A stretch of DNA of 64,000 bases from Sipunculus nudus (Eukaryota > Annelida > Sipuncula > Golfingiida > Sipunculidae). A program made the position numbers and the translations under genes. Shown here piece after piece: positions 141 through 63,993 of the stretch. The DNA is taken from NCBI GenBank assembly GCA_026874595.1, contig CM049315.1, positions 68,457,916 to 68,521,915 on the forward strand, in the 5' to 3' direction. Within the stretch, counting starts at the first letter, position 1. Each line of letters opens with the position of its first letter. Below the pieces are notes generated by a model, which did no database searches, was not told the origin of the DNA, and saw only the letters and a list, made by a program, of their open reading frames with translations.

Positions 141-2718
141 TACAAGGTGCAGAACCGTATCAATGTATGCAGCCGTTTGTTTCGGTTCCGGTAGGTCTTT
201 TTGGTACCATTATACCGGTCGTTATAGCTATCTTAATAAATCACCGAATCTTGGTGTAACAGATCGGGTACACCTCATGCGCTGTAGTATGATTCTGTGA
301 TATTAAACATTGAAAAAAAAATGAGGGATAGGTCCATCTCCTGTTGGTAGCACTATATGTTGAAGAGAATTGAAAATTATAAGAATGGTATGTTATCGTT
401 GACCTTTTGGATTTCAGATTGTATACCCATATACGGACAGGAGAAGTGTTTAAATCTTTAAGGACTGAAGAGCGACTTTAGAGAGAATCATTGAGGTTTT
501 ATTGATATTTCACCCTTTTTCCTTTGGGTTTTAACCTCTGCTTGTGCCCCAAAAGTCATTTGAGCTAAAGGATGGGTCTATATTCTTCAGTTTTTGTCCG
601 TCCGTGCTCCGGGTAAGAGAAAAATCACAACCGTCAGAGCAGAAAATTTAACTTCACATACTGACAATGCCTGTTAGTCCTTCGAGGAATTTAGAACTAG
701 GTCATTTTTTACATATATTCTCCGATTTTGAACACGTAAGTATTCAGTTGCATTTTTGAGTGGAGCGTGGTGGCGAATTGGTGAGGGTATTTACAATTTG
801 TGCCGCCAAGGTTGTGGGTTCACTGTCCCGTTCTGAAATCATACCGATTTTAACACTCCTAACCAATAGCATGCGCTCATACAAAAAGGATCGAATGGTT
901 ACTGGTCATTGGTGGTAGGCAAATATAGAACGAATAACCTTCTAACGCTTAGTATTGCTGCTTGGGTTGCATGTTCTCAAAGGTGTTTAGAAAAGCTACA
1001 AGCAACGTATACATTCGGATGAGACAGACATCACGGTGGCCTATATATTTTTGACTTTGAGGCCCCAATATGCAGGATTTATCAGCCTTTAAATTAAATT
1101 CTGATGCATAGAAACACATACTGCGGTTGTCTTTTTGTTCGCGAGGGTTCAAACTCGCGATATTCGCGAAAAGAAAATTATCGCGAAAATAAAACTTTCG
1201 TGGAAAAGAGTCTACATCTTCAGTGTAATGTCGAAAGGAAAAACATTGCTCTTATAAATGATATCAGAGTTTCAAATTAAATGTGAATAATGAAAAGTAA
1301 TTTCCACTCTTCGATATTCACTTTTATTTCTGTACAATTGTTACGATTTTGCTGAAATGTTATTTGATTTATTTAATTCATATAATAAAGATTAAACTAT
1401 ATTTAGGTTATTGTTTGTTGAGATCGCGAAAATGGAACCCATGCGAAACAACGGAAATGTAAAACTGCAAAATTTTTACCTCGCGAATATATAAAGCCAA
1501 TCACAGTATATTCTAACCACTAGAGTTGGGAGGTCAAACGTCACATGCACTAAAGACGAGTTAAAGTGGCAGACTATTTCCACATATATAAGCTCTATTA
1601 ATAGATATTGCCGCTATACTACTCCAGAGGAAGTTATTTAAGTCTGATAGGGCCCAAGTCTTACGGAAAAGTTGTAGTCTGATTGGCCATCTGGTCGCTG
1701 TACAACCTAAAAATGTGGCATTAGTTTACATTAAAAAAAACAGGTGGCGTCTGTGTGTTTAACCATACAAATATTGTCCCCTAACGACTGATAAGCAGAA
1801 CACTCATACATCTGTTACCACAGAACAATCAGGAAAAACGTTTCCTTAAACAGATATTTTTAATATTTAGACTAAATGTATATTTCGTATGGTATTGTGT
1901 TTATTCCCCAGACATTTGCCAGTTCCCTTTCTGTGCACTCCTATCTTATGAGAACCAGACACACACGAAAACACACATATATCATCATCATCATCATCAC
2001 CAAAAACATATGATGTACGAAAGCCAAAATGATAACTGAGACTTTTTTGCTTTTCAGACATGAACTTTTATTTTAATTGATTTAGAATCATTTAAATACG
2101 TTTTTGGAGAAACACAAACACAGATCGGATACACACATGTACGCGCGTCATCGTCGCACATAACACTAACCTTGTCTTGCATGTTGCGCTTTTACTTCGC
2201 CTTTACCCTGTAGTTGTATGTAATTAATAATCATACATGATAAGCATCTACGGTATTTGAAATAATGTCGCATAAAGAACATGATAAAAATATGTTTTTT
2301 TTTTATTTCCACCTCATTGTCAAGGCTCGCATCAATGCTACTCTCATATCGAATATAGCGGTGTCAATACGTGTATTATTTAATATTGCGTACTATGTGG
2401 ACGAGGCTAAGACTTGGTCAGTTCTGAACCTTAGCTCCCGTGCTCTCTGCTCCCACCACGCTGTGCTAGACCTTGGATACTGGTCTACGCCGCACATATA
2501 CAGTTACTCTTCTCTCTGATCCAGCAGACCACGTCCTGGAGCAGTTGTTTCCGTGGACCCGTGGCTCCGCCTGTGGCCACTTCATGCTTCACGCAGCTCC
2601 TGTCAACTCATCGTCAGACCATAGACTGCACTGACTGACCTGCCAATACGTCACGATCGTGGTGTACAGACTTGTACAGACTTGTAACAATGCCTAGTGG
2701 ACTTTTTCCGCTCCTTGT
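141..2718. other. Non-coding flank 3' of PLK4-like A
   Basis: No exon or ORF here looks like a protein gene. The stretch contains the unoccupied retrotransposon target CTCCT at about 335, a tRNA-like repeat at 758-870, a short (ATC)n run near 1980-2000, and the presumed 3' untranslated region of gene A reading leftward from 2718. The 141-340 part matches 38885-39085 and the rest matches 46771-49143, with small indels. In unit 2 only the part up to 1556 is retained, at 21533-22975. Confidence 0.6.
755..870 (+). repeat. tRNA-like SINE relic, unit 1 copy
   Basis: A TGGCGAATTGGTGAGG stretch at 771-786 resembles a Pol III A box, and GTTGTGGGTTCACTGTCC at 811-828 resembles a B box, about 40 bases apart as in tRNA genes. 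It does not fold convincingly into a full tRNA, so I call it a degraded tRNA-derived SINE head. It is shared by all three units. Confidence 0.45.
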
Positions 2719-5531
2719 TTAAGACGTCTGTGCTTTCCTCAACTTCTGAAGCACCGCGGGTAAAGTGTCCATCTTCTGTCTCACCTCCAACGGAATAAAG
2801 TCATTCTCCTTAAAACTGTAAGAGACAGAAAGAGAGAATAAGATGTAAACCCAGATTTATATAAACTGTGAGCAAATAAATATGGCTAAATGAACTGAGA
2901 CATAGATTCTGGTATTGACAAAATGATTCTAATCAAGCTATTTTGTCTGATTTTAAGGTTTAATTATTTCTATGTTGGCTGTGGAGCTAATCGACTTGAA
3001 TATGATTATAGTCAATTTAAATACCTAGCTTCGCTGTGATATGCTAGGCTTGGTATTGAGCTTGTATTTGTCAAGATTTTTATATTATTTATATTATTAT
3101 ATTTAATATAAGTTATATTAGGGTTAAGGAAATACGTACCTAGCTGAGAATCCATTAGCACCCGTGTACTTGATGACCATGGGACTGGGTTGAAGTTGAA
3201 GTTCTGAACCGTCAACAAACTGGACATACACTTCCTTGTTGGACCACTGAGTGCCACAGCCGATACCAGGGACAAATACTTTACACAGGACCGTTGGTTC
3301 TACCAGACACCAATTGTTGCTGCTTGGTGACGATGAAGCAGACGATGGTGAAGGAGGCGCCCCCTGGTTTGGCGTGGATTCCGGAGACGCCGCCATGTTT
3401 GTAGGTGGATTGGATGACAAAGATGATGTCCTCGTTGAACAGCTGGTTTGTAGAGATGCTTTCTTTTCTAAGTTCGACGACTCTGTCCGAAGAATCGAAA
3501 CACTTGAAGCCGGAGCTGTGCACCTCGGATTTAAAGGAGGGCTGGCCTTGTTGGCAGGAGGACGGCTGCAAAAGTAAAGAGACCAGATGATTAGTCTGAG
3601 CATGCGTGATCACACCAAATTTGCGAATAATAATATTATCTTAATATTTTGTATTATTTGTCTTTACTGAGGTCAATAATAATTTACGCATTAAAAATAA
3701 ACACTAAGGGACAAGTCGGTATTCTAGTATCTTTAAATTAACTGGAACAAATTATTGTTAAAAATAGATACTATATCGGATGTTAACTTAACCTTTTACC
3801 AAATGTTGTATGTAGAAATCGCTTCGTTTAATCATTGTAAAAAAAATGTATACATCGGATAAACTCTGATTTTTTGCTAAGATTTTATAGAAATACTGTA
3901 ATGCTTGTCTCACCTTCCGATCACTACTGGGAAGCAGGTGGCATTTGATCTTGATCCTCCGTTCATCCCCATCGTCATCAGGGAGACGAGATTTAGACAT
4001 TTCTGACGATACTGAAAAGACAAAATAAATTTGTAATTGAAAGGTTAATTAAACAACCTTGCATATGCCAAACAGCGTTGAATAATATGCACTTGTATAT
4101 ATGATTCTTTTTTTATAGCAATTATTAAACGAGGAAGAAAATTTTAAGTACCGGTTATTTCAATAGGTCTAATTAAGATCTTTTATCAAGTTCAGTCTAA
4201 ATTAGTTGTAAATTCTTACCCTCATCGCATAACTGTAGATCTCCCTGTTCTTCGGGTCCAGTTGTTGGAAGCTGGTGTCAGTCTCCAGTGTGATAGAACC
4301 TCCGTTACTCTGAGTGATGATTGTGACGTCATCGCTGCTGCGGACCTTGACGCCGTCATAAAATGCCGCCTCAAAGTCACAGTTATCGTTCTCCATCAGC
4401 ATACACTTGGCTTTGTCCGTGTACATGGTCACTTTTGGTGTTCTCGACTTGACCAGTTCAACAAATCTGAAACATAAATCACAAATAATGTTACATTGCA
4501 AATGAACCAGAAAACAGAAAGAAAATAATAATTGTTTTTAACGAATTTTTAAGAAATTCGTAAGAAATCAACTTGTTTTCATGTCCTTTAAATATCAATA
4601 ATTCATTTTTTTTCCGTATTTTGAATATAATCACCTTGCCGCATGCTGGTACTTCTTCCAGTATTTCTGGGGCAGCCTGTCGTGGCTGAACTCTCTGACG
4701 GAGCCTGCTGCAGGGCTGGCTGGGCTGTCACTGACTGTCGTGTTGTCACACTGGGGCTGATAGACCTGGACCACGTGACCATCAAGGCTGATCTTCATCA
4801 CTTCTTTCACAATCTCCAGGTCCTGTTTATTTCTGAGAATCTCCAAATACACGCTGCAATCGTCTGTGATCGTCATCTGTAAAGGGAAAAAATGTGAATA
4901 TAGAAATGATTCTCAGTAACTATCGCATTTTATCAATTATCTATAGGTTTCCCAGTTTAGCTAAAGAACAAATCCAGTATCTATATTACAAATATTGATA
5001 AATAACTGTTTTCTTTAAATAGTACAAGAAACATAACAAGAATATATCGATGTCACGTTTCACACGTTTCCGATCATCTCGTGATGATAAATGTACAACC
5101 TTTGAAATAACCTTACATTTATAATGCAGAGAAAACTAGAACTTACCACAAGACTGCGAATTTTCTGACGAAAAGGCTCCAGGCGAAAAGACGTGAGAGG
5201 AAGAGTCGGACAATTGTCCACGTGACCATAGGTGACGTCATCCACTGAGGCGGAACACCTTCCTCCCTGGCTGTAACTGGATACCTGAATAAACATTGAA
5301 ATTAATTTATGGTGTATGGCTTTATGGAATAATTCAAATGTTACATGTTTCTGTACAGTATATGTACATAAATATGTCTTAAGTTCAACCAAATTATATA
5401 TTTTCATGTTCTGTCAACGTTATGGTTAAAATGCAAATAGGCTTTAATGAATGAATTAAAATGTGTTCTCAGTTAACTTGTATATTTTACATTTTTTTAA
5501 AGTTCAGACTTACCACATTTTGAACTCCCAT
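2719..5531 (-). CDS. PLK4-like: Kinase-less PLK4-like polo-box protein A (7 exons, 421 aa)
   Basis: Exons, 5' to 3' on the minus strand: 5531-5514, 5284-5147, 4876-4635, 4466-4220, 4011-3914, 3565-3140, 2815-2719. All introns are GT-AG and the phases are 0,0,2,0,2,2. The product starts MGVQNV. PB1 spans about residues 40-130 (FRLEPFRQKIRSLV, then DRLPQKYWKKYQHAAR). PB2 spans about 134-245 (FVELVKSRTPKVTMYTDKAK, FYDGVKV, TCFPVVIG). A Ser/Pro-rich linker covers 249-339 and PB3 about 340-415 (VQFVDGSELQLQP, then FKENDFIPLE). These match the PLK4 C-terminus block by block. In PLK4 these boxes bind centriolar scaffolds (CEP192, CEP152) and STIL. No kinase domain, DSG degron or long linker exists, and nothing kinase-like lies upstream. 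No stop or splice lesion was seen. Host function is inferred; expression is unknown. Confidence 0.88.
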
Positions 5532-5584
5532 TGTTGTGTGTTGTCTCGTCTAATGATTCTGCTAGACCTTCAGAATAAGATCAA

Positions 5585-5763
5585 GTTATATATAATTATA
5601 ACGGCTGAGGCGGGTAGTTATATATATATCCTTAACTGAGCTCTCGTCGAGAACATCTGATGGATTCTGAGGACCGTTCATTTTATTTATTCACATTAAA
5701 GTTAAGAAACATGTTTTACCTCGCCCGCCCCGACCCGTTTGATCTTGTTTTATAAATCACGTG
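5585..5763 (-). promoter_or_regulatory. Putative promoter of PLK4-like A (TATA box and E-box)
   Basis: On the minus strand TATATAAC lies at 5592-5585, about 55 bases before the ATG at 5531, which predicts a start site near 5558 and a short leader. A CACGTG E-box at 5758-5763 sits about 230 bases upstream. The same E-box context, TCACGTGACC, precedes genes B and D at similar distance. The start was chosen because it is the first ATG downstream of the TATA box and splices in frame to exon 2. Confidence 0.5.
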
Positions 5764-6146
5764 ACCTCTTGGGTTAATCAGTCGGGTGTATCGTTGTAGA
5801 GTAAGATATAATTAAGAGTAATCAGACCAGTCGCTGCGAGCGAGCAAGGACGGAGCAATCATCCTGAACGTAATTAGTGCACATGATAATGAGAACATAG
5901 GCAATAATGATGATTAATGGTACTGCTGTACTATTTTCTCATACTTTTTGTTTTCACAGTATTTATTCAAAAATTGCTTATACATAAGGACTAGAGATAT
6001 AAAAATTTTAATTCTGTTCGCCATTACGTTTACATGGATCTGCTTCCTATATGCTCTCCACTTCTAGTATATATATATTCATCCAGGAAAAAATAAATCT
6101 CGAACGTGATAAAATTTAATTGAACTCTACAATTGAACTATCTACG
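5764..6146. other. Upstream flank of PLK4-like A, no gene
   Basis: Non-coding AT-rich sequence, nearly identical to 52185-52560. I searched it for kinase-domain exons that might belong to gene A and found none. Confidence 0.6.
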
Positions 6147-6150
6147 TATA

Positions 6151-6181
<31 letters not shown>

Positions 6182-6209
6182 ATATATACACAATATATAT
6201 ATATACATA

Positions 6210-6240
<31 letters not shown>

Positions 6241-6245
6241 TATAC
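6147..6245. repeat. (TA)n microsatellite
   Basis: Nearly pure TA repeats with a few CA interruptions. This is the left border of a 1.1 kb block present here but absent from unit 3, where the same microsatellite (about 52573-52617) joins directly to sequence matching 7318 onward. Confidence 0.9.
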
Positions 6246-6389
6246 CTAGGAAAAAAATTTAATCTCATTTTTTCATTTGGAGTTGAAAATTATCAAAATT
6301 AATCTCTGTAGCTTTAATTCGTATGAATACAACATTAGAATATTCCAATAATCTTAATTATTTTTGGATTTGAAGCGAATTGTTCCCAA

Positions 6390-6935
6390 TGCAGTGGCAG
6401 TTCCTGAAATTCGAGAACGGGGGGCGCGAATGTATTTGGTTAACGGTTGATGGGTATTAAGCTTTATATATATATATATGCAATATTTTATTACCCATAT
6501 ATATGTACGTAAAATATTTTCATCTTATGAAGTTATAAAATTTTATGAATACATGTATATATGAATAAAATCTAAAGCCATGTTTATTTGGAAAGTTAAT
6601 TACAGGTACACCGGGGAGGGTATGGGAGTGCCCCCCCTCCCATATTGAGAACATGTTTAAATATACAATGTAAAGAGGACATTTTGAAGCATCTTTCACA
6701 AAAATATGAAGATTTTCTGTTCCTTATCTACTGTTCTCTTAAATGTCTTTGATGTCAGACTTTAGATGGCGGGGGTTCACGTGTAGCTGGCTATACAATA
6801 TTTATATTTCTTCAGAATTTGGATATTAATTGTCTAGTTCAAATATTCATCGTTATATATATCATATATTATAATCGTTAGTATCAGGTTAATATTGGGG
6901 GGGGGGGGGGGGTTCTGGATCCGCGACTGCATTTT
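6390..6935. mobile_element. Possible hAT-like non-autonomous element
   Basis: The left end reads CAGTGGCAGTTCCTGAAATT (from 6394). The right end, inverted, reads CAGTCGCGGATCCAGAACC. This matches the CAGTGGCGGATCCAG type of terminus seen in many hAT elements. A run of about 16 G at 6896-6912 precedes the right end. There is no coding capacity and no clean 8 bp target duplication. It lies in the 6160-7318 block that unit 3 lacks. Confidence 0.4.
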
Positions 6936-7859
6936 ATAGATTTAAACGAACAAATCAGATATAAATACTTTTAAATGTAATTTATAGGAACAAGATATCA
7001 GTATATACTATTAGGTATATTGTAATGATATAATTAATCTAATATACAATTTGTATTTTGGTATTTATTTATAAATCTGGAGCAATTTGATCAAAATGTT
7101 AACAATGTGGAGTAATTTGAAGAGCTCAAAGATTAATGTGAATACTACTGGTCATGCTGGACCAGGCTTTGTTCTTTCTATGAAGTGAGCAGCAGTTCAC
7201 TCACGCGTGAGATGACCAGTCATCCATACAGAGTTATATGAAAGGGGTATGCCGGCCTTGACCTGGAAATTTATTTAATACGCACGGGTGATCAAGTGCC
7301 CCGCCGAGATCCCTAAAATATCAAACCCATCGCTCACACATACAAATGACTATAAATAAGGCAGGGTGCCAAACTAGTCTTCTATGTGTCAGTAAGAGTC
7401 ATCAACATCAAAACAGCAAAAAATAACACACAAGTTTCTTTTGGTCACAGTGCAGGGTTATAACTTCCATCCAAAATAAAAAAAAAAAAAAAAATACCAC
7501 AGACCACACACGTGAAAAAATAAACACCACACACACATGTACAGACACACGAATGCATCAATATAACGTAGTGTGCCAAATTGGGTGTCCATGTACCCGA
7601 CAAAGGTCACCAAACGTAAGACAGTGGAAATTAAACAACAAAATTGAAAGCGACACTAAAATAATTAGGTGCAATCCATTGATAATAAGAATGTACAAAT
7701 ACATGTACCTAAGTTACATCTACTAACCAGTATTTACTTAGGTGTGTTCCGTAAGTAACTTTGGTGATTTTTCCCTTATACTTAAACAAGATCACCAAGT
7801 AGTGTGACTAAAGCTGGTAATATGGACACCTCACTGTGGAAGAGACTATAATAATAATG

Positions 7860-7895
<36 letters not shown>

Positions 7896-9335
7896 TTAAT
7901 AAAAATAATTATAATTTAAAAAGATCCCCTTTTTTTAGCAAATTAGATAAAGATAAGTAATAATATCACTTGAACACATATAGAAAAGGCTCGAAGAAGT
8001 AGAAAAAAACACACGAACCAGAAAAATACGCAAGAACAATGCTAATTTTAAACTTTATTCTTACAAACAACAAATGGAATCTGCAGTACAATCCTCCATT
8101 TTATTCAAGAATACAAGCGGATAAAAGGATTACACACAATAGAAACTGACACGCGATTCACTTGTTTATTTCTGTTCAACAAGGTCAGTTGTACATTTCA
8201 GGCCACACCTGCTACAATGAAAATGACAAGTCGTTGTTGTGAACACCCAAAACAATAAATAAAGTCACGGAGATACCAGACATAGGTGTGACATTGGGTA
8301 TAATAACAATTTTATTGCATGATATGATAATGGGTGGTCCATAGGTCATGAATCAAGGTGATGCCACCTTGTCACTCTTTGGCAATGTCTTTTGTTGCCA
8401 AATTCCAAAATGGCGCCTGTAAATAATTTAAAAAAATATGAGAATTATGTTTTAACTTAATGTGATTACAATTATATTTCATAAATTTCAAGATGGCGTT
8501 TGTAAATATTGAAAAAAATCATAGAATGGATGCAAATGAAGCAATACCCCGGTGTAATTACAATTTTTTTTCTAAAAATGGTAAACAGTAGCATGTAGAC
8601 CATGAATCAAGCGGGTGCTACTACGTCTTACGTGGGAATTCTTTGCTTTGGCGCCAAAATCCAAGATGGCCTCTATGAAACCCTAAAACAGCGTGTGGTG
8701 GTGGAACCTGATCTTTAAAATGGCAATTGATTGTTAAACAATTAAAACTGTAACGTTTAAACACTTTTGCTTCTTTCTACCGTTTATTGATTTTAATGGC
8801 CAAACAAAAAGCCGAACTTAGAAGAAAAAAAAAAAAAAAACACATAAAGACAAAAAAGTAACAGAATTCTTAAGCAGAAAAAAAAAAAAGAAATACTAAC
8901 TTTTAATATGTGTGTTTTCCGAAAGAACTGATAGCTGACTGATTCTGCCATGAACGATTTCAGTGTGACAAAATAATTGTGATATGGTAAACGTTTCGGG
9001 AGCTCTATGCGCATGCGCAATTAGTAGTATGTGCCACACGGACAGTGTTGGTGGCATTTATTGATGCAGAATGGAACGTACAATCTTTTGTAACGATCGA
9101 CCATTCTATGGGAATGATTGTTCCTCCTGATCTGATCGAGTATTATAAATCTGTTTGTGTCTATAGGAATCATTTATTATCAAATTCCTTATTTAAAGGG
9201 ATTGTTATTATTTATAAAGTGTGTCAAGCCACGTCAATGTGGCAAATGTGTTTTCGGGTCCAAGGAAATGATGAATCAAGTTGTCATAACAAAATATATA
9301 TCGCCACCCATACTTTTCATTCTTCGTTCTCGCTT
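6936..9335. other. Non-coding intergenic sequence, unit 1
   Basis: No supportable gene. It contains an A-rich run near 7472-7492, a (TAA)n microsatellite at about 7857-7905, A-rich stretches at 8823-8890, three ATGGC-type motifs at 8400-8675 and an NRF1-like palindrome at 9008-9019. From 7320 on it is about 97 percent identical by eye to 52620-54619. Short open frames here change length between the copies and look like chance. Confidence 0.55.
9008..9019. promoter_or_regulatory. NRF1-like palindrome TGCGCATGCGCA
   Basis: A perfect 12-base palindrome fits the NRF1 consensus and is conserved in unit 3 near 54294-54306. It lies about 470 bases before the start codon of a decayed gag reading frame and may be part of that element's old promoter. 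Function is inferred from motif alone. Confidence 0.35.
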
Positions 9336-11543
9336 TGCGTTATGAACATAAATTTTGTAATTGAGAAAAAATAATCAGATTCTGTAACACTAGGCAGCGT
9401 GAAATATCTAGGGGAATGAATAAAGCATTGTTTACAAGATTTATCTCAGTGTTTTTTTGTTATTGTTTTAACATTTGAACATGGCAGATTTCAAACCTGA
9501 GACATTTGTTGACGATCCCGACCCTGATCAACTCGGGCAGTTGACAAAGGAACAGTTGTTGCGTTTGGGACAACACTTGGGGCTACGTGTGAAAAGCCTG
9601 GTATCATTGCTAAAATCAAGCAAAGGTTTAATTGAAGAAGAAGAAATGGAAACATAAAAAATGACAGCCTTGCTATGCAGTTGGAATTAAAACAAATTAG
9701 AAATGCAAAATGAGCTAGAATTAAAAGAGAAAGAAAAAAAAATTGAGTTAAAACGACTGGAGTTATAAAGACTTAAACTAGAACATGGTCTACTTGCTGC
9801 CCCAACTCACCGTTTTGATGTTGCTAAACATATCAGACTTATCCCGCCTTTTCAAGAAAAAGAGGTTGATAAATATTTCTTACACTTTGAGAAGGTTGCT
9901 GAAAATTTAAAATGGCCTATGGAAAATTGGACTATGCTATTCTAAGTGTATTGACTGGCAAGGCCATAGAAATTTATACAGAGCTTTCAGTAGATGCCGC
10001 TGCTGACTATGACCTGGTTAAACGGTTAATCCTAAAAGGTTACGAGTTAGTTCCGGAGGCTTACCGCCAGTAATTCAGAAATTGGGAAAAGCGCAGAGAA
10101 CAGACCTACGTCGAATTTGCTAGGACAAAAGAGCAATTGTTTGATCGCTGGTGTAGTTCTAAAAATGTAATGAAAGATTATGACAATTTGCGCCAGTTGA
10201 TTTTGCGTGAAGAATTTAAGCGCTGCATAAAAGCAGATGTTAAAACTTTACTCGATGAGAAAAGTCCTGAAACACTTGACATTGCTGCTCAATTAGCTGA
10301 TGATTATTCATTAACACTCAGAATATCCTTTACTAGCAAATCAAACCAGTCATTCACAAACAAGAAAGTAAATCAGTATGGTGAAAGGAAGTTTAATGCG
10401 CAGTCGCCCAGTACTAGTAGTCCTGATAATCCAGCAAAGTCCATTGCTACACCTCAGTATACGTCAACTGTGTCTGGATCCAACCAAGGCCAGTCATTTT
10501 CAAAGAAAATCTGTAACAACTGCAAGAAGGAAGGTCATCTAAAATCTGACTGTTGAAAACTTGCGAATAAATCAAATAGAAAACCTTCTAATTTTGTTTC
10601 AAAATCTATAAATAGCATAGTACAAGAGCCAGGCCCTTTTCATGTAAATAAGGGGTACAACTCCTTTATTGACTCTACAAAAGAGTTTGATGCTACGGAG
10701 GCCAACGTGCCGTCTGACTCCAAAGAAGAATCCGTAGCTTGCGAGGTAAAAACCTCAGTTGATTCCTGCGAGGAATTTAATAAAGCTAGATCCTTTTAAG
10801 TTTCCTGCGAGGAGTATTCTCTGAATAAGGAAGTCCTTTTATGACCCCTGCGAGAGTATTTCAAATGAGGCCAGGTCATCTTATGACAAACAGAAGTTTG
10901 TTTCTGTTGAGGAAAATTCCTCTGTTGACTCCCATGAGGAGTGTGATGAAAAAAGGATGTAGATTCCTTAAATGACTCTGCAAAAGAGTTTATGACTGAC
11001 ACCTTCAATGTCAGTTCTTTGTTTAATGAAACTGAGGTAGTATCTGAAATGGAGTTATTTGACCCATTCATACATGATGGTTTTGTATCACTTTCAAGTG
11101 ATTTTTCAGACTCTACCCCTATTAGAATTTTGAGGGACACTGGTTCAGGCCAAACCCTCATGTTAGCAAACACTTTGCCATTTTCTAATAGGTCTTTTAC
11201 TGGTGCACATGCACTTGTTAATGTTGTGTTTTCCGACAAGCACACTTCAGTTCCGCTTCACAGTATACATTTAAAGTCAGATTTGATTTCTGGGAATATT
11301 ACTGTGGGCATAAGAACTACTTTACCCTTTTAGGGAATTCGGTTTCTGCTAGGCAATGATGTTGCCGGTGACAAAGTAGAGCCTGTACCAATAGTGACAG
11401 AAAAGCCGTATATGACCAAACTGGGTAATTTGTCAACAAAAAAAAAAAATAACTTCTTTATTCATTCCCCTAGACATTTTACGCTGCCTATAGTGTTACA
11501 GAATCTGTTTTTTTTCTCAATTACAATATTTATGTTCATCACG
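9336..11543 (+). pseudogene. Decayed Ty3/gypsy-type gag-protease relic between inverted repeats, unit 1 copy
   Basis: A gag-like frame starts at 9481 (MADFKPETFVDDPDPDQLGQ) and continues through several stops and frameshifts. Recognisable parts are a charged coiled segment near 9710-9790, a capsid-like stretch at 9830-10320, a CCHC zinc knuckle near 10514-10556 (CNNCKKEGHLKSDC) and an aspartic protease motif LRDTGSG near 11130-11150. Sequence ends shortly after the protease; reverse transcriptase, RNase H and integrase are absent. Instead of direct LTRs, about 85-90 bases at 9336-9425 recur inverted at 11457-11543. The unit 3 copy carries partly different indels, so it was already non-functional or decayed after duplication. 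Confidence 0.7.
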
Positions 11544-14500
11544 CATACGTGATCTTTTGATATTAGGTTTCGTAACACACGGTGAAAGCGATCTGATTCC
11601 TGGTTCAATGTTCCGAAATCTCGAAATAACGAGGAATTTGTGCAAAATTTATACACCGTTTAATTAAAGACACACTCAAGGATCACATTTAAAAATAAAA
11701 AAAAATAACCAAACAAATGGAAATTTGGTCTAGAATCAGCATAATGTGATTGTTTACAGTCTGTAGTATTCAGAACCACAACGGTGTCGAAAGCTCTCAT
11801 CACAGAAACCAAATTCATCACTCATCAGCTGTTGTTTAAATATCACAAAACTCTCCAAAATGGGGGTACATTTGTATACGTGACATTAACATCCATAAAC
11901 CAATACTCAAACCATGAACAAAAATTGGGGCCTTCAAAATTTCACCAACTCCTCTCAGATTCCGTCCGTCTCTATATACGGAAAGCCGTCAAATCTGAAA
12001 ATTCAGTGACGTCATAATTATGCACATAGATCAAATCACCACCATGAAACAGTGATCTGATGGAAAAATTAAAAGTCCGCCATCTTGTTATCCATATAAC
12101 ACATACTTTTAAATTAACTTGATCGCACATCCAGATCATTATATCATGATTTAAAGCTCAAAATTACTTATCAAATAAACATATTAAATAAAAATATCTT
12201 TGCGTATAAAACCTGTATATATGCACAAAGTTGACTTTATTTCAGGTTCTAAATATACACCTTGTCAGTATTTTGAGCTCCTCTGACCATAAACCAAATC
12301 CAAATTACAAGAAAGCTACTACACAAGATCTCGACACTAGTCTGGATTTCCCTACCATAAATATAAATAATACAAAAACATATTTCGATAATGGTCTATA
12401 CCCCCAGTACATACTAGTAGTTGTTCTCCCATCACCCGCTGGCAGTATACATAACCCAAACACAATAATACACACACGGACACAAACACATAAAGGCAAC
12501 ACGAATTAATAACAAAACGTAAAATCGATGCCTTAATCGATTAAGTAACAGAACCTTTGCTGCTGGCTGATGAAGAAAACAAAAATCACTCTGTCATCAT
12601 TCAAATGAAGGTAGAGAGTAGTGCCAAACTGTCTGCATGCGGTCCGCTGTGGTGTTCAGGCCCTCATCACGGTGTGGGCGTGGTCACTGTCTGCATGCGG
12701 TCGGCTGTGGTGTTCAGGCCCTCATCACGGAGTGGGCGTGGTCACTGCTGCTCTGCTGGCTCGTCAGACTTCTCGTCGTGACCTCGCTGCTGGGTGTTCT
12801 GGAGCTAACCTGGGGAGGCGTCTTGGACCTCTTTGTGCTTGGCTTGCTGTGACATCTACAAATACTTTAACAAATTTCGTCCCTATTTTCGGAGGCTAAA
12901 GAACCTGAAAACAATCTATGTCTGGATTTTGTCGTTGGTGGGGGAGCTGATGTGGCCCGGTTTGCTTGAGTCTACGTGATCGGCTCCAGCCCCGACTCCA
13001 CTTTCTTGGAACCATATATCTAAACACAACAATGAATACGCTGACCTGACCTTCAGAAAATAACGCTCTCTGTGGTGATCCATACTCCTAAAAATAAATA
13101 TTCAACCTTTAAATTTTTGTTTACATTTTCATATCATTTTGAAAATGAAGGTAGATCCATGATTAAAATAAATGGTGTGAGTACAATATGTTTCACTAAG
13201 AAAGACATAGCTAAACACTTATGCGTGACAAATATTAGAGGCACTTTATTTAACCGTAGTCCCCTGTTAAAATCGATACTGGAAGTGTATTGTAGTAAAA
13301 GTACAATATAAATGACCTGCCTAATCTCTCGTCTGGTGGCGGTAACCGGCTCTTATTTTTGCTGCTTTGGCTCCTGGTCCTCAGCATTCTTTAGCGGAAA
13401 CTGGTGACACAAAGAACAGACCCCGGTGATGAAAAAACACATAAGCCGGCCCCTCTGTTCGGTCAGGGGAGTGTTTTATTGACGGCCACCAGGCCAACGG
13501 GTGCATTCCGAGGGACAGGGGAAGGGTGACATTTTCGAGTCGTACATGCGAGTCGTTTTTACATTGGAAGTTAAAAAATTGTATTTATCTTCGTTGCAGC
13601 GAAGAGATAATGTAAATGATGGCAATGGTAACGATAATGATGATAATATATATTATTTTTGCTACTGCTTTTCTAAACATTTACTTAACATGTGTGCCAA
13701 GAATATCCAGTTAACAAGATCGTGATAATACTGGTCCGAATATTTTCCACACTGACTGCATTAATGGTGCTTGACAATTTTGGACTGTAAATTCTATTCA
13801 TATTTTTATTTATTTATTTTCATAATGCACATGGAGATCTTACCCTTGAGCTGTGATGAGGCAATTTTTATCTCCGCCAGTGGGGTAAGCGTTCATCCCC
13901 GCTCGTGTGTGTTTGTGTGTTTTTTTCACAACATATCTCAAACGATAATAAACGGAATCTAATGAGAAATGTTCAAAGTATTTCGGGAATGGCCCAATGA
14001 AAAATAGATTAGCTTTGGCGTGGATCCGGTACATCAACCAGATTCAGTATATATCTAGGTCATGTTTATGACCAAGGAATATTCACAAGTGTACATTCAC
14101 TTATGCAAGAACGAACCTGGGTAAATGGGCCGAATAAGTTAATGCAAAGTCGGGTTTGGTAACATGACCTTGAGAATAAATAAACCGGATGTATCATTGC
14201 AGAGTACGATATGATGATCAGTAATCAAATAACTATCGTCTAGTGAGCAATTAGAGAGTAATCATCCTGCACGTTATTAGTGTATGAATACATATACAGC
14301 AATTATTGATCATAATGACGCTTTCTTGGGTAAACACTCTATAATAGTCAGGGCCGTGCCCCCGTCCGAAACAACATGGAAGAAAACCCCCATGGGCGAG
14401 TCAGTCAAGGATAACTTGTGTAATAGATATATTTAAATTTTTTACCTGGCTTCTGCTATTCTGTTGACGGTTATTCCATGTTTCTTTCTCCTAATAACAC

Positions 14501-15690
14501 ACACACACACACATATATATATATTGTCAGACCAGTAGCATGTCTAGCTTTCTGATGAGGCCTACTATTTGGTTTGTCCATTCTTTGAGGATATAGAACG
14601 AAATATACTAAAGATCAAAATCAAAACGATTTTTCGAGGACCACTCTGGATACTAAGATGGAGAATACTCAGACCTAAAGTTATGACTTATTTCCTGTTC
14701 AAACTCACCTTGTTTCAACTTATTACCATTACTAAGACCTATTTTGGTTTGAGATGATCGAGGGGGCTGTGGGTTAACATTGATGCTCGTTGGGATACAG
14801 TGAATACATGAAGCTTACCTTTGAATTTTTTTGGGATGTGCCCTCTCTCTCTCTCTCTCTCACTGGTTGAACACACATTTAAAAGATTTTTTTTTCTAAT
14901 CTAGATATTCACCTAGTAACCTCGAATTTAAGAGCAGAGTTGTCTTTTGTCTCCGTGCCTGTCTCTCTCAGGTATTTTTCTCCCCCCCCCCTCTCTCACA
15001 CACACACATACACACACAATGCATGCAGTAGAATCATTAAAATCTTTTACACCAAGCTTTATTACAATTATGTGTACCTGTTTTTATGAGCCTGCAAACC
15101 GCACATGTATAGCAAATTTAGCAAGTCAAACACATTGCATAATCACGTTTTAAAATTTGACGGAAATTGGTATAAATGGTGGTAGAACTTGTAAGGCTTT
15201 TACAACAAGTAATCACAAACATCTCGGTCTCTTGTCATCATCATCACCACCATTATCATCATAATAAGACAATGAATAACATGCATATCACACTCTCTCC
15301 ACAAGCTTTGAATGAGTCCATGTGTATATGTGCTCATTTCCTGAGAGAAGTCTTTGGCTGCATCCCAGAATTCCGTTCGGTTTCTCGGCTTCCACTTTTC
15401 AGTCTCCTCCGTCTCTGTGTATGTAGAGTTCTTGGTGCCCTTGACCGATCGATGGACGTGCATGTTCCTAATTGATTCCCGTCCTCTGAAACTCCTTTCT
15501 TGTTGGCGGCTTAGACCGTGGCAGCTTGTTATCAGCCTGTACCCTCACCCGCGTGTTGACGCAACGCCTGTCCTTCAACCTGTGTCAACAGTGTCAAGAC
15601 TGTCAGCTGTGTCAGATTGTGCCATCCGACAGACGAGTGGGTGGACCTTTGAGAACAGCTCTGTGAACTCCTGGGTGGAGGTCTGGGTTC
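11544..15690. other. Non-coding region between genes A and B, unit 1
   Basis: About 99 percent identical by eye to 59641-63805. It contains a 60-base tandem duplication (12630-12755), CT-rich tracts near 14842-14862 and 14983-15000, CA tracts near 14500-14525 and 15000-15020, and the probable 3' region of gene B. At 13600-13690 lies the unoccupied site of the 1.56 kb element found in unit 2 (24740-26303). Small open frames on both strands lack homology or splice support. Confidence 0.55.
12600..12860 (-). other. Ser/Thr-rich open frame with tandem repeat, possible exon remnant
   Basis: Reading leftward from a TTTGTAG acceptor-like site near 12856, one frame is rich in Ser, Thr, Lys and Arg. 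In unit 3 (60952-60708) it stays open for about 80 codons; in unit 1 it meets stops inside a duplicated 60-base segment. I do not recognise it. It could be a decayed exon of an unknown gene or chance composition. Confidence 0.2.
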
Positions 15691-15694
15691 TTAT

Positions 15695-15760
15695 AGCTTG
15701 CCTGTAGCCATCCGTGTATACACAGATGGTCTGTAGCTATCCGTGTATTAGCTCAATATG
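15695..15760. repeat. About 29-base minisatellite, two copies
   Basis: Two imperfect copies of a unit containing GTAGCTATCCGTGTAT lie just beyond the stop codon of gene B. The same place next to pseudogene C (32168-32305) holds about five copies, and unit 3 (63815-63870) holds two. Confidence 0.7.
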
Positions 15761-15773
15761 AACCTACTTTGAA

Positions 15774-18700
15774 TCAAGCTCCAGACGTCTGTGCTTCACT
15801 CAGTTTATGAAGAACTGCTGGTAGATCGTCCATTTTCTGTCTCACCTTTAGAGGTATATGATCATTTTCCTTGAAACTGAAATATGTACCAAGACAAATA
15901 AAGAACTATCAGAAATTTATATTATGAGTAAAAGTATATTTTCATCAGCCTTTAAAGGTTACTATCATTAAGAAGTCGGTACTTCAAATGTATGAATATT
16001 TCCAAGGGTTTACATAATTATGTGTTGCTGTATTTAAAAAAAATGTTCCTGTATTGGTTTTAACATTCATTTGTTCAAGAGGCATTAAGTATACACACCT
16101 TGATGCGTTTCCTTTTGGACACGTGTACTTGATGACCATGGGGTTGGGTTGCAGTGATAGTTCTGACCCGTCATCGAACTGAACAGACACTTCCTTGTTT
16201 GACCACTGAGTTCCCCAGCCAATACCGGGGACGAATACTTGGCAGAGCATCCTTGGTGACGGTAAAGGGAAACTGTTACAGCCAGAGGCAGACGACAATG
16301 TTTGATCCTGGTTTGGCGCCATTTCAACTGACGACAGCGTCTCATCCGGTGTAACAGATATATCTGAACTCCCGTCGATTGGCGTGCTGCTTCTTGGGCT
16401 TTCTCTGGTGGACAAAGGATCTGTTGAGCTGACTCGAGACTTTGGGCTGTCGGTACATGAACGTCTGGATAATGGGAGAGATAATATGATGATTAGAGAC
16501 CGATACACTTTGTAAAGTTAAAGACTAAATATTTTGTATTTTAAACTTCTTAAATCAGTAAATAAAGTAAAATTACATAGGTCGCACCTATATTTTTTAT
16601 CATGAATGACCCATGCATATGATTCAGAACTACCGGTCCATTTCTATCTGTATAAGTGAAATATTAAAGGTACGATATGTATCAAAATACGTCTAATAAG
16701 ATTCACCTTCCGATGACAGCAGGGAAGCAGGTCACATCTTCTCTTGATCCTACGTGATCGTCCATTGACGTCACCAGGTAAACAAAGTCTAAACATTTCT
16801 GACGAATCTGAAAAAAATACAGACATTTTAATGAAAAAAATGTTTTTTTTTTAAATTTTTTTTGTAGAGGCAATCGCCTCCATTTTTAATGCTGACTAAT
16901 CTAAGTAATAAGCTAAGTATTTAAATCTGCAGAGTTCCTTTCCGGATTGGGACTACTTGACAAGGCGGTAGCACTCGCTTTATTTTATATTTTGTCATTT
17001 TTATTTTATATTCTGGTGTCACCCAGGCCCGGGTTCTACCGCACCTGCAGGACCTGGGTGTGAAATCATCCAAATTGCTGGGTCATAACACAGAGGTACC
17101 TTCCAAAGACGCACTCGTTTGTGAGTGATACACGGTTGTGGGGCACAACCTTCCCATTTAACCTGCAGAACGCTCACCCCGGGGTTAGGGCCGACCATGA
17201 AAATCTTAACGCTTCTCGCTGAGATTTGAACTCGCGACCTTCCGGCTCGTGCTCTACCCCTGAGCCACAAAAAAACAAGTCATATTCACAACTGTTTGTA
17301 TATACAGTGAGTGTTTTTGTTGTTTTGTATATTTTTAATATTCTTGATTTTGAAATCGTTAGAGTTATCTAAATATACCTTATAACTTGATACGTTTTTT
17401 TCATATGACCAAATACTCTGGAATAGTTTGTATGATTCATGATGTAAAATTATGATTAGATGTGCTATATTAAGATATAAAAATAAAATTAATATAATAT
17501 ATTACTATTAATTTTTTACCTTTAATGCATGTTTGAGGAGTTGCTTGGTTTGAGGATCAAAGTTGAAAGAGCTTGTTTCAGAATCAAGCTTGAAATATTT
17601 TCCGTCGCACTTGGTGATGCTCGTAACGTCATCACAACAACGGACCTTGGCTCCGTCATAAAACGCCGCCTCAAAGTCATAATTGTCGTTCTCCATCAGC
17701 ATACACTTGGCCTGGTCTGTGTACATGGTCACTTTCGGGGTCTTGGACTTGACCACGTCAATAAATCTGTAAGAATATAAACACATATGGTTCACAATCT
17801 ATAGTTTAGAAAAGTTGTTCAAAAGGATATGTTTCTCGACGTTTTATGTCATTTCATATATTTTATATGTTTCAGGACAATGACATTATATGTAAACTTG
17901 CTTAAGTAAAGATAAAAAAATTTAAAAAGTAATAAAATCGAGTAAGATCTAGATCTGTTTTAATATGCGTGACATGCATGTTCTGTACCTATTGTCGAGA
18001 GACAAAAAGAATAGCACATGTTCTCCATACTTACTTTGCTGCATGCTGGTACCTCTTCCAGTATTTCTGGGGCAGCCTGTCGTGGCTGTACTCACTGACG
18101 GAGCCTGCTGCAGGGCTGGCTGGACTGTCACTGACTGTCGTGTTGTCACACTGGGGCGGATAGACCTGGATCACGTGACCATCAGGGCTGATCTTCATCA
18201 CTTCTTTCACGATCTCCAGGTCCTGTTTAGTTCTGAGGATCTCCAAATACACGCTGCTGTCGTCTGTGATCGTCATCTGTTGAGAAAATGGTGCAAAAAG
18301 GAAATGTGACCACTTGTATTTATTCCTACTACATATCTCTATTCTCAGTTAAATTATCCGATCTCAGTTAAAAGTGTAAAGTCAGGAACGGTAATATAAT
18401 AAGATTTCATTTTTCACAGTTTTCTTCTATTAATCGGTTCGATGATTCGGTTGTCTTCGTCTATTAGTTGTTTGATCAACAAAAGTGATCTTTGACCCAC
18501 ATATAATTTATTTTTTTTTCAAAAAGATATCAATACTTGAATTATTTTTTTAAAATGATAAAATTCTCAGATATAGTGCTTGTGTTATATCGGTGTAAGT
18601 ATATAATCATCGCTGAGTATAATAAATAACGGTAACTTACCACGACGTTACGTATTTTCTGACGACAAGGCTTCAGACGAAAAGACGTCAGAGGAGGAAT

Positions 18701-19112
18701 AGGACAACTGTCCACGTGACCACTGGTGACGTCATCGGCTGAGGATGAACGCTCTTCTCCTTGACCGTGACTGTATACCTAAAACATGAAGGTTTGAAGT
18801 GAGTTTAGGATACCAGTATATTGACATGCGTCGGATATCGGATGAGTCACTCAGATCTAGCGATTATGTATACTCATATCATATATTAAAATACATAAAT
18901 TAACAACACACTTTCAATTTCTGTCATTCATGCATTTAAGTATTCGAAGTAACTTTGACATATAAATGGGCTCATTGTAAGTAATCGGCTGAAATACGTA
19001 GTCGCGAAAGATTGTATTAAAAGATTAATTACAACAGGGTTTCGTTTTATGGCCAAAATAAAATTAAATTTAAAGTCTATATATAATCAGAATCAGTGAA
19101 AGCCCTTACCAT
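15774..19112 (-). CDS. PLK4-like: Kinase-less PLK4-like polo-box protein B (7 exons, 399 aa)
   Basis: Exons, 5' to 3' on the minus strand: 19112-19110 (only the ATG), 18778-18641, 18276-18035, 17766-17520, 16807-16707, 16464-16099, 15876-15774. All donors are GT and acceptors AG, with phases identical to gene A. PB1 covers about residues 30-127, PB2 129-240 (KSKTPKVTMYTDQAKCMLME, FYDGAKV, TCFPAVIG), a Ser/Thr/Pro linker 245-314, and PB3 about 315-395 (VFVPGIGWGTQWSNKEVSVQ, then FKENDHIPLK). The coding exons keep much more identity to A than the introns do, which suggests selection. Exon 1 coding only Met is inferred: no other ATG lies between the TATA-like box and the first donor. A SINE sits in intron 4. 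Kinase domain absent. Confidence 0.85.
16990..17270 (-). mobile_element. tRNA-derived SINE in intron 4 of PLK4-like B
   Basis: On the minus strand TGGCTCAGGGGTAGAGC (about 17266-17250) fits a Pol III A box and GAGTTCAAATCTC (about 17232-17220) a B box. A GC-richer body of roughly 200 bases follows, then an AT-rich tail near 16990. The head resembles the 5' half of a tRNA but is embedded in a longer repeat, so it is a SINE and not a tRNA gene. The family was not identified. Confidence 0.65.
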
Positions 19113-19270
19113 ATTTTTTATTTTATTCTTTTTCCCGATGATGAACGGACTTGACCTTGAGGTATTAAGATATGACCTTGATATGTTATGGCCTTGTGAC
19201 AGCTGAAGCAGAAGCTACCTTTCTGAACAGATCTCAAATCGAATACAACTGATAGAATTTGTGGAAAATC

Positions 19271-31150: not shown

Positions 31151-32360
31151 TCAAGCTGACGGTTATTCCATGTTTCTTTTTCTTTATAACACATACACAC
31201 ACACACACACACATATATATTGTCAGACCATTAGCATATCTAGCTTTTTGATGAGACCTACCATTTGGTTTGTCCAATCTTTGGGGATATAGATCGCCAT
31301 AAACTAAATTCAGGAGATAAAAATCAAAGAGAATTTTTAAGGACCACTCTGGATCTTTTATTATAATCGAGATATGCACCCAGTGACCTCGAATTATAGA
31401 GCAGAGTTGTCTGTTGTCTCAGTTTCTGTCGCTCTCAGGTATTTTTTTTATCTCTCTGTCTCTCTCACACACAATAAAGCCATAGAACCAGAAAACTCTT
31501 ATACACTGAGCTTTATGTATTAATATTGTGTGTATATAATTTATGTGCCTGTGAGCCGCACATGTATGGCAAATACAGGAAGTCAAATGCCTGACGTTAT
31601 CACGTTAACACTTGGCGGGTATTTTTACAAATGGCGGTAGAACTTGTGCGGCTTTAACAACAAGCAATCACAAATATTTATTTCGCCCATAACCTCGGTT
31701 TTATTATCATCATCACCAACACCACAATCATAAGACAATGAATAACATGCATATCTCACTCTCTCTCTACATGCTTTGAATGAGTCCATGCGTATATGTG
31801 CCTATTTCCTGAGAGTAGTCTTTGCTGCATCCCAGAATTCCGTTCGGTTTCTCGGCTTCCATTTCCACTTCTCCTCCGTCTCTGTATTTGTATAGTTCTT
31901 GGTGCCCTTTACTAATCGATGGACATGCATGGTCCTCTTGGACTACCGTCTTCTGCATCTCTCTTCTTGTTGGCGGCTTAGACCGTGACAGCTTGTTATC
32001 AGCCTGTATCCTCACCCGCGTGTTGACGCAACGCCTGTCCTTCCACCTGTGTAAACAGTGTCAAGACTGTCAGCTGTTTCAGATTGTGACTTGCGAAAGA
32101 CGTGTAGATGAATCTTTGTGAACACCTCTGTGAATTCCTGGGTGGAGGTTTAGGCCTACTGTTCTTACAGATGGTCTATAGCTATCCGTGTATATACAGA
32201 TGGTCTTTAGCTATCCGTGTATATACAGCTGGTCAATAGCTATCCGTGCATATACAGATGGTCTGTAGCTATATCCGTGTATACACAGAAGGTCTGTAGT
32301 TAAACGTGTATATGCTCCATATTAACCTCCTTGGAATCCCGCTCAAGAAGTCTGTGCTTC
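31151..32360. other. Unit 2 flank 3' of pseudogene C
   Basis: Homologous to 14460-15773 of unit 1. Non-coding, with CA and TC tracts and the expanded minisatellite at 32168-32305. An open frame at 31767-32015 on the minus strand is conserved in part at the same place in units 1 and 3, but reading frame and ends are not, so I do not call it a gene. Confidence 0.55.
32168..32305. repeat. About 29-base minisatellite, expanded to about five copies
   Basis: Units contain GGTCTGTAGCTATCCGTGTA with variation between copies. There are two copies at the matching places of units 1 and 3. Confidence 0.8.
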
Positions 32361-40234: not shown

Positions 40235-40250
40235 TCACCCCCTCCTTTTA
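40235..40250 (-). promoter_or_regulatory. Polypurine tract
   Basis: On the minus strand AAAAGGAGGGGGTGA directly precedes the TGTCACC start of the 3' LTR, the expected primer site for plus-strand DNA synthesis. Confidence 0.8.
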
Positions 40251-40454
40251 AGGAAAATACACAGTATTTTCTCGATACATCGTATCGTTCTATCTTACAG
40301 GGTCCAGCTAAACATATTTACATGTAGCAATACATAGCAATACATAAGGGTCATGTAACAAGTTGTCATTAGTACATGCCCACGGTCTATGACACAGGGC
40401 AAAATCTAGTACATGTTTAGACTTAACTGGCTAAACATTATAGCTCATTACATC

Positions 40455-45604: not shown

Positions 45605-45616
45605 GCACGCTCGCCA
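45601..45616 (-). promoter_or_regulatory. Candidate tRNA primer binding site
   Basis: On the minus strand, five bases after the 5' LTR, TGGCGAGCGTGCCAGG starts with the TGG expected to pair with a tRNA 3' CCA. I did not assign the tRNA species. Confidence 0.6.
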
Positions 45617-63896: not shown

Positions 63897-63993
63897 TCAA
63901 GACGTCTGTGCTTCACTCAGTTTATGAAGAACTGCTGGTAGAACGTCCATTTTCTGTCTCACCTTTAGAGGGATATGATCATTTTCCTTGAAA
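63897..63993 (-). CDS. PLK4-like: PLK4-like B-prime, last exon only (cut by the window edge)
   Basis: A CAG acceptor (63996-63994) precedes a 97-base exon encoding FKENDHIPLKVRQKMDVLPA and ending SEAQTS with TGA at 63899-63897. It matches exon 7 of gene B (15876-15774) but stops two codons earlier because of a local change (GGAGCT to GAGCT). The remaining six exons would lie to the right of the window. Whether the gene is intact cannot be seen. Confidence 0.8.

Follow-up and report, generated by a model that had tools for sequence, protein, structure and literature searches.

A kinase-free array of PLK4-type polo-box genes in the genome of Sipunculus nudus

What might genes that carry the polo boxes of PLK4 do in an animal when no kinase accompanies them? 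PLK4 (SAK) is the enzyme that sets centriole number; dimerisation and self-destruction of the enzyme itself keep its activity in check, and excess activity leads to extra centrioles. In the window analysed in the present study, the whole 64-kb stretch (64,000 nucleotides) of Sipunculus nudus DNA, the initial annotation had described two genes, A and B, that encode PB1-PB2-PB3 and neither kinase nor degron, and this interpretation is supported at the level of sequence by spliced models, Pfam and PDB matches. First, Plk4_PB1 and Plk4_PB2 were detected by Pfam in both products (E-values of 4e-31 and 4e-30 in A, and 3e-31 and 1e-30 in B), and also far over the cut-off in L029, another intact copy. 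Second, the cryptic polo box (CPB; PB1-PB2) of A matched PLK4 CPB structures with an E-value of 3e-45, and PB3 of A matched PLK4 PB3 structures (7e-10; 4e-11 for the PB3 piece alone). Third, no kinase family was observed in A or B at E-values up to 1 in the Pfam scan. In the same database, PF00659 was observed only at PB3 of B, below threshold (21.2 versus 23 bits), and was absent from A, and C5orf34 domains remained below the cut-off in both genes (13.0-18.4 versus 27 bits).

The products of A and B comprise 421 and 399 residues, respectively, and all introns are GT-AG, with zero stops or frameshifts in the spliced models (Table 1). The complete splice structure with matching intron phases claimed at the outset was recovered, as the exon end phases are identical in the two genes (0,0,2,0,2,2). 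The exons are indeed more alike than the introns: exons 2-7 share 56-95% of their DNA sequence, whereas identity across the introns is 44-52%; for intron 3, the one intron compared with a shuffled control, the alignment was no better than that control. The exons of A were reproduced identically by a spliced aligner, as were exons 2-7 of B with B's own protein as the query; with the A protein as the query, the aligner placed a shift in the unalignable linker of B. An alternative reading frame for exon 5 was dropped, since the splice phases give another frame, which is that of PLK4. In B, the first ATG of the family is ATA, and translation would start at the last codon of family exon 1, a retained ATG. 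Between A and B, the 300-bp 5' flank shows 61% identity, compared with 41% in a shuffled control, and the flank of A might contain the promoter; the flank common to A and B was absent from L029 in the flank comparison. Elsewhere in the window, D is a 95% copy of A in which the intron-4 donor reads AT instead of GT and exon 6 has lost 1 bp, breaking the frame upstream of PB3. The gene to which E belongs lies outside the window (L021, C10:68521815-68524817), where its model is open and has lost the first family ATG, as in B. The tandem duplication comprises three blocks with identities of 94.9, 92.4 and 97.3% (self-blastn).

Table 1. Polo-box features in the 64-kb window (positions counted from its first base)
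Feature	Position	Strand	Details	Basis
Gene A	2719..5531	-	exons 5531-5514, 5284-5147, 4876-4635, 4466-4220, 4011-3914, 3565-3140, 2815-2719	spliced model, Pfam and PDB matches
5' flank of gene A (putative promoter)	5532..5831	-	TATA-like AATAAATAA stretch; also conserved in B and across A-type members	
Gene B	15774..19112	-	ATG 19112-19110, exons 18778-18641, 18276-18035, 17766-17520, 16807-16707, 16464-16099, 15876-15774	spliced model, Pfam
B's form of family exon 1	19110..19126	-	17 nt	alignment to the first exons of further B-type copies and of C16 copies
C, B-like remnant	32346..34683	-	partial exon 3 34683-34534 (one stop), partial exon 4 34230-34108, exon 7 32438-32346 (one stop)	tblastn and sequence
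D, recent copy of A	49144..51954	-	duplicate block 94.9% identical	model and exon comparison
E, exon 7 of recent copy of B	63900..63992	-	rest of gene outside window	tblastn
Tandem duplication, copy 1 as visible in window	338..15883		holds A and last exon of B	self-blastn
Tandem duplication, copy 2	46771-64000		cut by window end	self-blastn

The A/B family is real, but two genes proved too few to describe it, as at least 53 kinase-free polo-box loci were observed in the S. nudus genome, 44 of them with PB1, PB2 and PB3. Of these loci, 46 lie on C10 (Chr10; 68.45-70.04 Mb) and 7 on C16 (Chr16), and the family comprises three diverged subfamilies. Among the 31 copies modelled, 17 are intact and 14 are damaged (C, D and 12 others), and every one of the intact copies has the short first exon and reads through exon 7 to the stop. 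One PLK4 kinase gene was found (C10:70113677-70121075; 14 exons, 1099 aa). In a genome search with the kinase of this PLK4, in which 145 of 353 candidates were scored, PLK4 kinase exons were detected only at C10:70.118-70.121 Mb and in neither array, and within 350,784 bases covering the window, array loci and the PLK4 locus, kinase or linker sequence was found only at the PLK4 locus. Overlooked kinase exons upstream of the copies were ruled out by searches that scored 91 of 198 candidates in one case and 145 of 353 in the other. As to the joining of a kinase exon to these genes, raised initially as a possible objection, no PLK4 kinase exon was found near them in the candidates scored, and the family has a conserved first exon of its own. 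The DSGxxT/S phosphodegron is present in 0 of the 17 intact family proteins, whereas the PLK4 of this species has DSGRLT.

Several observations point to common descent of the family with the polo boxes of PLK4. For the PLK4 tree, 31 proteins were picked for phylum spread from the 120 matches listed, and the PLK4 of S. nudus was added; the polo-box tree (38 sequences) comprises this set, five family members drawn from the 15 distinct intact copies, and the metagenome protein P0001. A mollusc origin of the sequence, suggested by Solemya as the one named match in a protein search, was rejected in the light of the PLK4 tree. In the polo-box tree, which had been proposed as a check on the annotation, the five family members form one clade (100%) that is sister to S. 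nudus PLK4 (100%). Across the aligned PB1-PB3 region, A, B and L029 are 42-48% identical to this PLK4, and four introns are common to it and the family (AK^F, phase 2; end of the PB2 core, phase 0; IGR, phase 2; PB3, phase 2). A phase-0 intron within PB1 of the family is missing from this PLK4, one linker intron of this PLK4 is missing from the family, and 43 of 47 PB1 matches start at the new PB1 intron. The 5' flanks of family exon 1 (18 nt, phase 0) and PLK4 exon 1 (21 nt, phase 0, weak donor) showed only chance-level matches. The family resembles the PLK4 of its own genome in PB1-PB2-PB3 order, the four introns and their phases, PC3 S/T sites, STIL-contacting hydrophobic residues and chromosome, and differs in the absence of the kinase and the DSGxxT degron, a short N-terminal extension, the extra PB1 intron, the missing linker intron and the dozens of copies. 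PLK5, a vertebrate PLK in which the kinase is lost or truncated, is likewise a polo-box protein without kinase activity; however, its boxes are of the PLK1-3 type (a PF00659 pair). In agreement with its initial dismissal as a different paralogue, A and B match Plk4_PB1 and Plk4_PB2 and group with S. nudus PLK4 in a tree that does not include PLK5.

The coding sequences bear marks of selection. The dN/dS values, the subject of a second suggested check, are not close to 1: the value between A and B is 0.35, at a synonymous divergence of 0.73, and omega across the family is 0.425 (2dlnL of 174 versus omega=1). The codon models used the 15 distinct intact copies, leaving out the duplicates L020 and L027, and kappa was set to its free estimate in the omega=1 models. 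Omega was 0.304 in PB1, 0.369 in PB2 and 0.278 in PB3, with omega=1 rejected each time (2dlnL of 59, 69 and 78), and was 1.00 in the N-terminal extension and 0.89 in the linker. Within recent subgroups, values of 0.557 (A-type, 2dlnL 17.6), 0.543 (B-type of C10, 15.4) and 0.308 (C16, 71.7) were obtained. Purifying selection thus acts on the three boxes while the linkers drift, and a pseudogene array with neutral coding sequence is ruled out by the A-B dN/dS and the family codon models. This box-restricted constraint suggests that at least some members make a protein, and that its job might be binding.

The residues conserved in the family suggest which partners might be bound. Equivalents of human S698, S700, T704, T707 and K711, placed through residue spacing in the human sequence, have retained S/T and K in all 17 intact copies; phosphorylation of these PC3 S/T sites by PLK4 clusters the isolated CPB, according to the available text of PMC6823436. 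Ten hydrophobic PB3 positions that contact STIL in human (PMC4530586, available text) are all hydrophobic in 16 of the 17 copies, with nine in L029, and a STIL locus was found in the S. nudus genome. Two PB3 backbone-contact positions (human G922 and K943) are changed in the family, and S. nudus PLK4 also differs there. V758 at the PB2 tip, one of four hydrophobic residues required for human CPB clustering, is Ser in 8 of the 17 copies. One basic CPB patch is contested between CEP192 and CEP152, as stated in the accessible part of PMC7479937.

We propose, as the probable explanation, that this is a PLK4-derived kinase-free array whose members are predicted to join PLK4 as free partners, or to compete with it, at its scaffolds and at STIL. 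First, as the sequence comparisons indicate, the family arose from the lineage's own PLK4; it kept PB1-PB2 and PB3 and lost the exons of the kinase together with the degron and most of the linker. Second, the kinase-free copies, with their own short first exon and PB1 intron, were amplified in tandem. Third, the members most likely dimerise through the cryptic polo box, with themselves or with PLK4, and, judging from human structures, most likely dock on CEP192/CEP152-type scaffolds and bind STIL through PB3. They would most likely also act as PLK4 substrates at the PC3 cluster, bringing neither kinase nor self-destruction signal. As a net result, PLK4 at centrioles would be buffered or limited, probably only in certain cells, e.g. 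the germ line or cleaving embryos. The mode of action of the members is the least certain step of this proposal. Weighing against it are the 14 damaged copies, the lost first ATG in B and E, the changed PB3 backbone-contact positions and V758, and the lack of the A/B flank in L029.

Other explanations of the array appear less likely. In Drosophila, Stellate consists of amplified CK2-beta-like kinase-regulatory subunits without a kinase, and its drive is documented. The present family is likewise an amplified non-catalytic partner of a kinase, although it consists of polo boxes and drive is documented for Stellate only. By analogy, the copies might form a selfish, conflict-driven array that influences how centrioles are inherited or segregated in the germ line, its expansion being fuelled by drive or by an arms race with a suppressor. 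The high copy number, the recent block duplications, the single PLK4 kinase locus found and the homogenisation of the PB1 core within exon bounds, alongside faster change in the latter half of exon 4, would fit this reading, which we nevertheless consider unlikely: omega in exon 4b is 0.48, with positive selection not seen, and the published assembly is described without XY- or ZW-type sex chromosomes in the available text of PMC10212961. Equally doubtful is the related possibility that the members are a lineage-specific set of natural decoys, heterodimerising with PLK4 in a Stellate-like array driven by germ-line conflict and controlling centriole number or inheritance, with the PB1 core kept alike by gene conversion.

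A mostly dead array, in which partial PLK4 copies were spread by segmental duplication and few or no members function, the frames being open because duplication was recent, appears somewhat more improbable still. Duplicates of large blocks lie ~474 kb (5 pairs) or ~393 kb (3 pairs) apart, not counting two pairs, at 392.5 and 101.7 kb, in which unrelated copies were joined, and the genes are near-identical in both intact duplicate pairs compared (L020 equals L019 exactly, and L026 and L027 are one change apart); these blocks and the 14 broken copies are what such an array would leave. However, omega below 1 in all three boxes and in each recent subgroup, with linkers near 1, argues against it, as do the A and B 5' flanks, which are closer than the introns, and the A-B synonymous divergence, at which age the chance survival of open frames is too unlikely. 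Least probable is a dosage role, in which more copies simply mean more PLK4 docking protein for cells that build many centrioles or cilia (larval or coelomic multiciliated cells), since three diverged subfamilies were observed instead of uniform copies, although amplified tandem genes with flanks conserved within subfamilies would fit high output.

The kinase-free copies may tune PLK4 or compete with it. With dozens of PLK4 docking modules that are free, lack the degron and evolve under purifying selection, the genome offers a natural version of experiments so far carried out with cut-down constructs, in which PLK4 dose, heterodimers and scaffold competition become testable in an animal. In the available texts, the isolated human CPB forms dimers, and PLK4 phosphorylates and clusters it (PMC6823436), and human PLK4 PB3 binds STIL (PMC4530586). 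The pieces used in those constructs correspond to those of the family; the S. nudus form, in contrast, is encoded by natural genes and unites both modules in one chain. No PLK4-derived family of such build was described in the literature searched, which was covered partly by title and with subscription papers mostly outside its scope. Among 5.77 billion proteins searched, one match without an annotated kinase was obtained, the metagenome protein P0001 (349 aa), which had already been part of the alignment on which one of these searches was based. It derives from a 1901-bp JGI contig, starts inside PB1 and lies on a long branch (63% support) in the polo-box tree; it may be a truncated PLK4 or a fragment and was not counted as a relative of the kinase-free architecture. 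The 120 matches listed from the same database included PLK4 sequences from two annelids and from over 20 species of mollusc.

Genes A and B were each resolved as an open model encoding PB1, PB2 and PB3, the three polo boxes of PLK4, on a shared set of exon end phases (0,0,2,0,2,2). Pfam detected Plk4_PB1 and Plk4_PB2 in both (E near 1e-30) and no kinase domain in either, and the C-terminal part of A matched solved PLK4 PB3 structures (E 7e-10; 4e-11 for the piece alone). Spliced alignment recovered the exons of A, and exons 2-7 of B when B's own protein was used; A's protein as query on B produced a shift inside the unalignable linker of B. DNA identity between A and B is 56-95% in exons 2-7, against 44-52% across the aligned introns; for intron 3, the sole A-B intron with a control, identity does not exceed that of the shuffled sequence. 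Thus, the initial annotation of two kinase-free polo-box genes with matching intron phases, and with exons more alike than introns, holds.

Features in the window and related loci on C10
Feature	Position	Strand	Description
Gene A	5531-2719	minus	7 exons, GT-AG introns, open frame 421 aa
Gene B	19112-15774	minus	7 exons, GT-AG introns, open frame 399 aa
C	34683-32346	minus	remnant with stops
D	51954-49144	minus	young A copy; intron-4 donor lost, 1-bp deletion before PB3
E	right window edge	minus	last exon of young B copy
Probable LTR retrotransposon	39086-46770 (7.7 kb)		duplication copy 2; 1149-bp terminal repeats 99.7% identical, 1319-aa frame
Non-LTR retroelement-like frame	56190-57992		600 aa; copy 2 only, between blocks matching 10228 and 10227 of copy 1
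Gag-like frames	10074-11333; 58287-59426		degraded
S. nudus PLK4	C10:70113677-70121075		14 exons, 1099 aa; ~70 kb beyond array
L029	C10:69997436-70007272		kinase-free locus
L032	C10:69708518-69718207		kinase-free locus

Genome searches returned 48 PB1, 50 PB2 and 48 PB3-exon hits, the last search also giving exon-7 hits that are listed separately. Merged by position, the hits form at least 54 loci, at least 45 with all three boxes; PLK4 itself is one, and at least 53 loci are kinase-free, at least 44 of them with PB1, PB2 and PB3. At least 46 kinase-free loci lie on C10 (68.45-70.04 Mb), the contig that includes the window, and a second array of at least seven lies on C16. The C10 loci found left of ~69.56 Mb are all on the minus strand, and those at 69.70-70.04 Mb are all on the plus strand. 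Because C10 contains block repeats spaced ~474 kb (5 pairs) and ~393 kb (3 pairs) apart, these counts, themselves lower bounds, may include assembly duplicates; the published S. nudus assembly is described as based on HiFi and Hi-C data with haplotigs purged (PMC10212961). In the two intact duplicate pairs compared, the coding sequences were identical (L019/L020) or showed one difference (L026/L027). A total of 31 kinase-free copies were modelled (four from the window, 25 larger loci, L005 and L006; L numbers denote loci outside the window). Intact copies, with exons 2-7 open, correct splicing and a terminal stop, numbered 17 (A, B, L005, L010, L012, L013, L014, L019, L020, L021, L022, L023, L025, L026, L027, L028 and L029); the remaining 14 were not intact (C, D, L006, L011, L015, L016, L017, L018, L024, which is missing the normal exon 7, L030, L031, L032, L033 and L034).

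The build of these genes is shared. First, a short phase-0 first exon is present in 17/17 intact copies (18 nt, but 17 nt in B and L021, where the first ATG is gone and the last-codon ATG is kept), encoding MGVQN(V/M) or MEVQNM in A-type copies, MKV(Q/L)NM in B-type and C16 copies and MGAFSM in L029. Second, a phase-0 intron splits PB1 in all 17; as expected from this split, 43 of the 47 non-PLK4 PB1 hits genome-wide start at profile position 18-24 (of the other four, two start at 10, one at 47 and one at 51), and the PB1 of S. nudus PLK4 spans positions 2-105 within a single exon. Third, four introns match PLK4 (AK^F, phase 2; PB2-core end, phase 0; after IGR, phase 2; PB3, phase 2), and one PLK4 linker intron is absent from the family. 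This common build points to one origin of the family, from genomic PLK4 and with no retrocopy. Over 300 bp of 5' flank, A and B have 61% identity (shuffled 41%). For B and the C16 copy L014 the figure is 77%, exceeding their introns (55-67%), and for B and L022 it is 78%, inside the span seen in the introns of that pair (58-78%). L029 does not share the flank (43-45% vs 44-46% shuffled). The conserved flank might act as a promoter. L029 and L032 represent a third subfamily, deeper than the others, in which the first exon encodes MGAFSM and exon 2 is longer.

The parent PLK4 carries Pkinase (4.6e-73), Plk4_PB1, Plk4_PB2, a POLO_box hit at PB3 and a DSGRLT motif; the query for its model was assembled from the reading frames of that locus, so the model is splice-consistent, not independent. 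When its kinase was searched against the whole genome, PLK4 kinase exons (73-97% identity) were found at the PLK4 locus only, and the other matches were 25-49% identical, none inside the C10 or C16 array (145/353 candidates scored). A Solemya kinase gave the same outcome (91/198 candidates scored), and, at an E cut-off of 10, 350,784 bases (36 records, the window plus 35 loci) contained kinase or linker sequence at the PLK4 locus and nowhere else. In a 32-protein tree, S. nudus PLK4 clusters with Capitella (99%), and NCBI taxonomy places Sipuncula in annelids. The kinship with PLK4 assumed initially was borne out by a polo-box tree including the same-genome PLK4, in which the five family members tested form one clade (100%), sister to that PLK4 (100%) among a sample of animal PLK4s. 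Judging from this position, the family is younger than the divergence from Capitella. In two protein searches (5008 and 7422 candidates, 0.55-1.75x query length), P0001 was the only kinase-free relative found elsewhere, a metagenome protein that may be a fragment; a control search with PLK4 found 1207 proteins, with two annelids and over 20 species of mollusc among the 120 listed.

The exons of A and B, read initially as coding, do not have dN/dS near 1 (Nei-Gojobori dN 0.252, dS 0.725), and a codon model of 15 distinct intact copies gave omega 0.425 (2dlnL 174 vs omega=1). By region, omega was 1.00 in the N-extension, 0.304 in PB1, 0.369 in PB2, 0.89 in the PB2-PB3 linker and 0.278 in PB3; by subgroup, it was 0.557 in A-type (2dlnL 17.6), 0.543 in B-type C10 (15.4) and 0.308 in B-type C16 (71.7). 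Restricting the set to intact copies lowers omega a little, an effect that cannot explain boxes at ~0.3 beside linkers at ~0.9 within the same genes. In the PB1 core, made up of exon 3 plus the initial half of exon 4 (gene A 4876-4635, 4466-4340), silent changes are few between otherwise saturated copies: identical-residue codons differ at 6/97 in the core vs 56/107 elsewhere between A and L029 (Fisher p 9e-14), and at 14/101 vs 55/137 between A and B (p 1e-5). Intron 3, between these exons, is unalignable. Exon-bounded gene conversion is the simplest explanation of the low silent change, silent-site constraint being the alternative; compared with the family copies, S. nudus PLK4 takes no part in this homogeneity.

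Herein, we propose that family members are expressed, might dimerise with PLK4 and could bind the scaffold and STIL, the direction of effect being proposed on the same footing. In human, PLK4 is reported to phosphorylate PC3, and the phosphorylated isolated CPB (PB1-PB2) then clusters (PMC6823436); the human PC3 positions S698, S700, T704, T707 and K711, placed by spacing, are S/T and K in 17/17 intact copies. STIL is described as contacted by ten hydrophobic PB3 positions (PMC4530586), and all ten so described are hydrophobic in 16/17 copies, L029 having N at one. STIL_N hits fall on three exons of a single C4 locus, and human CEP192 and CEP152 are described as using the same CPB patch (PMC7479937). 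Counting against the proposal, backbone-contact G922 and K943 are not retained in the family, nor in S. nudus PLK4, and PB2-tip V758 is S in 8/17 copies. At the level of sequence, the present study demonstrates the genes, their descent from PLK4, constraint and kept sites; a functional protein family is highly probable, and action via the partners of PLK4 is somewhat favoured.

Self-comparison revealed a tandem duplication that holds the A/D and B/E pairs (blocks 94.9, 92.4 and 97.3% identical). Past the window edge, E continues as L021 with an open frame and B's loss of the first ATG. The 7.7-kb element, a recent insertion and by eye a probable LTR retrotransposon, has a CTCCT target-site repeat at its ends, and copy 1 has an empty site near 338-342. 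The 600-aa frame looks by eye like a non-LTR reverse transcriptase. The gag-like frames, with a zinc-knuckle-like motif recognised by eye, occur in both duplication copies.
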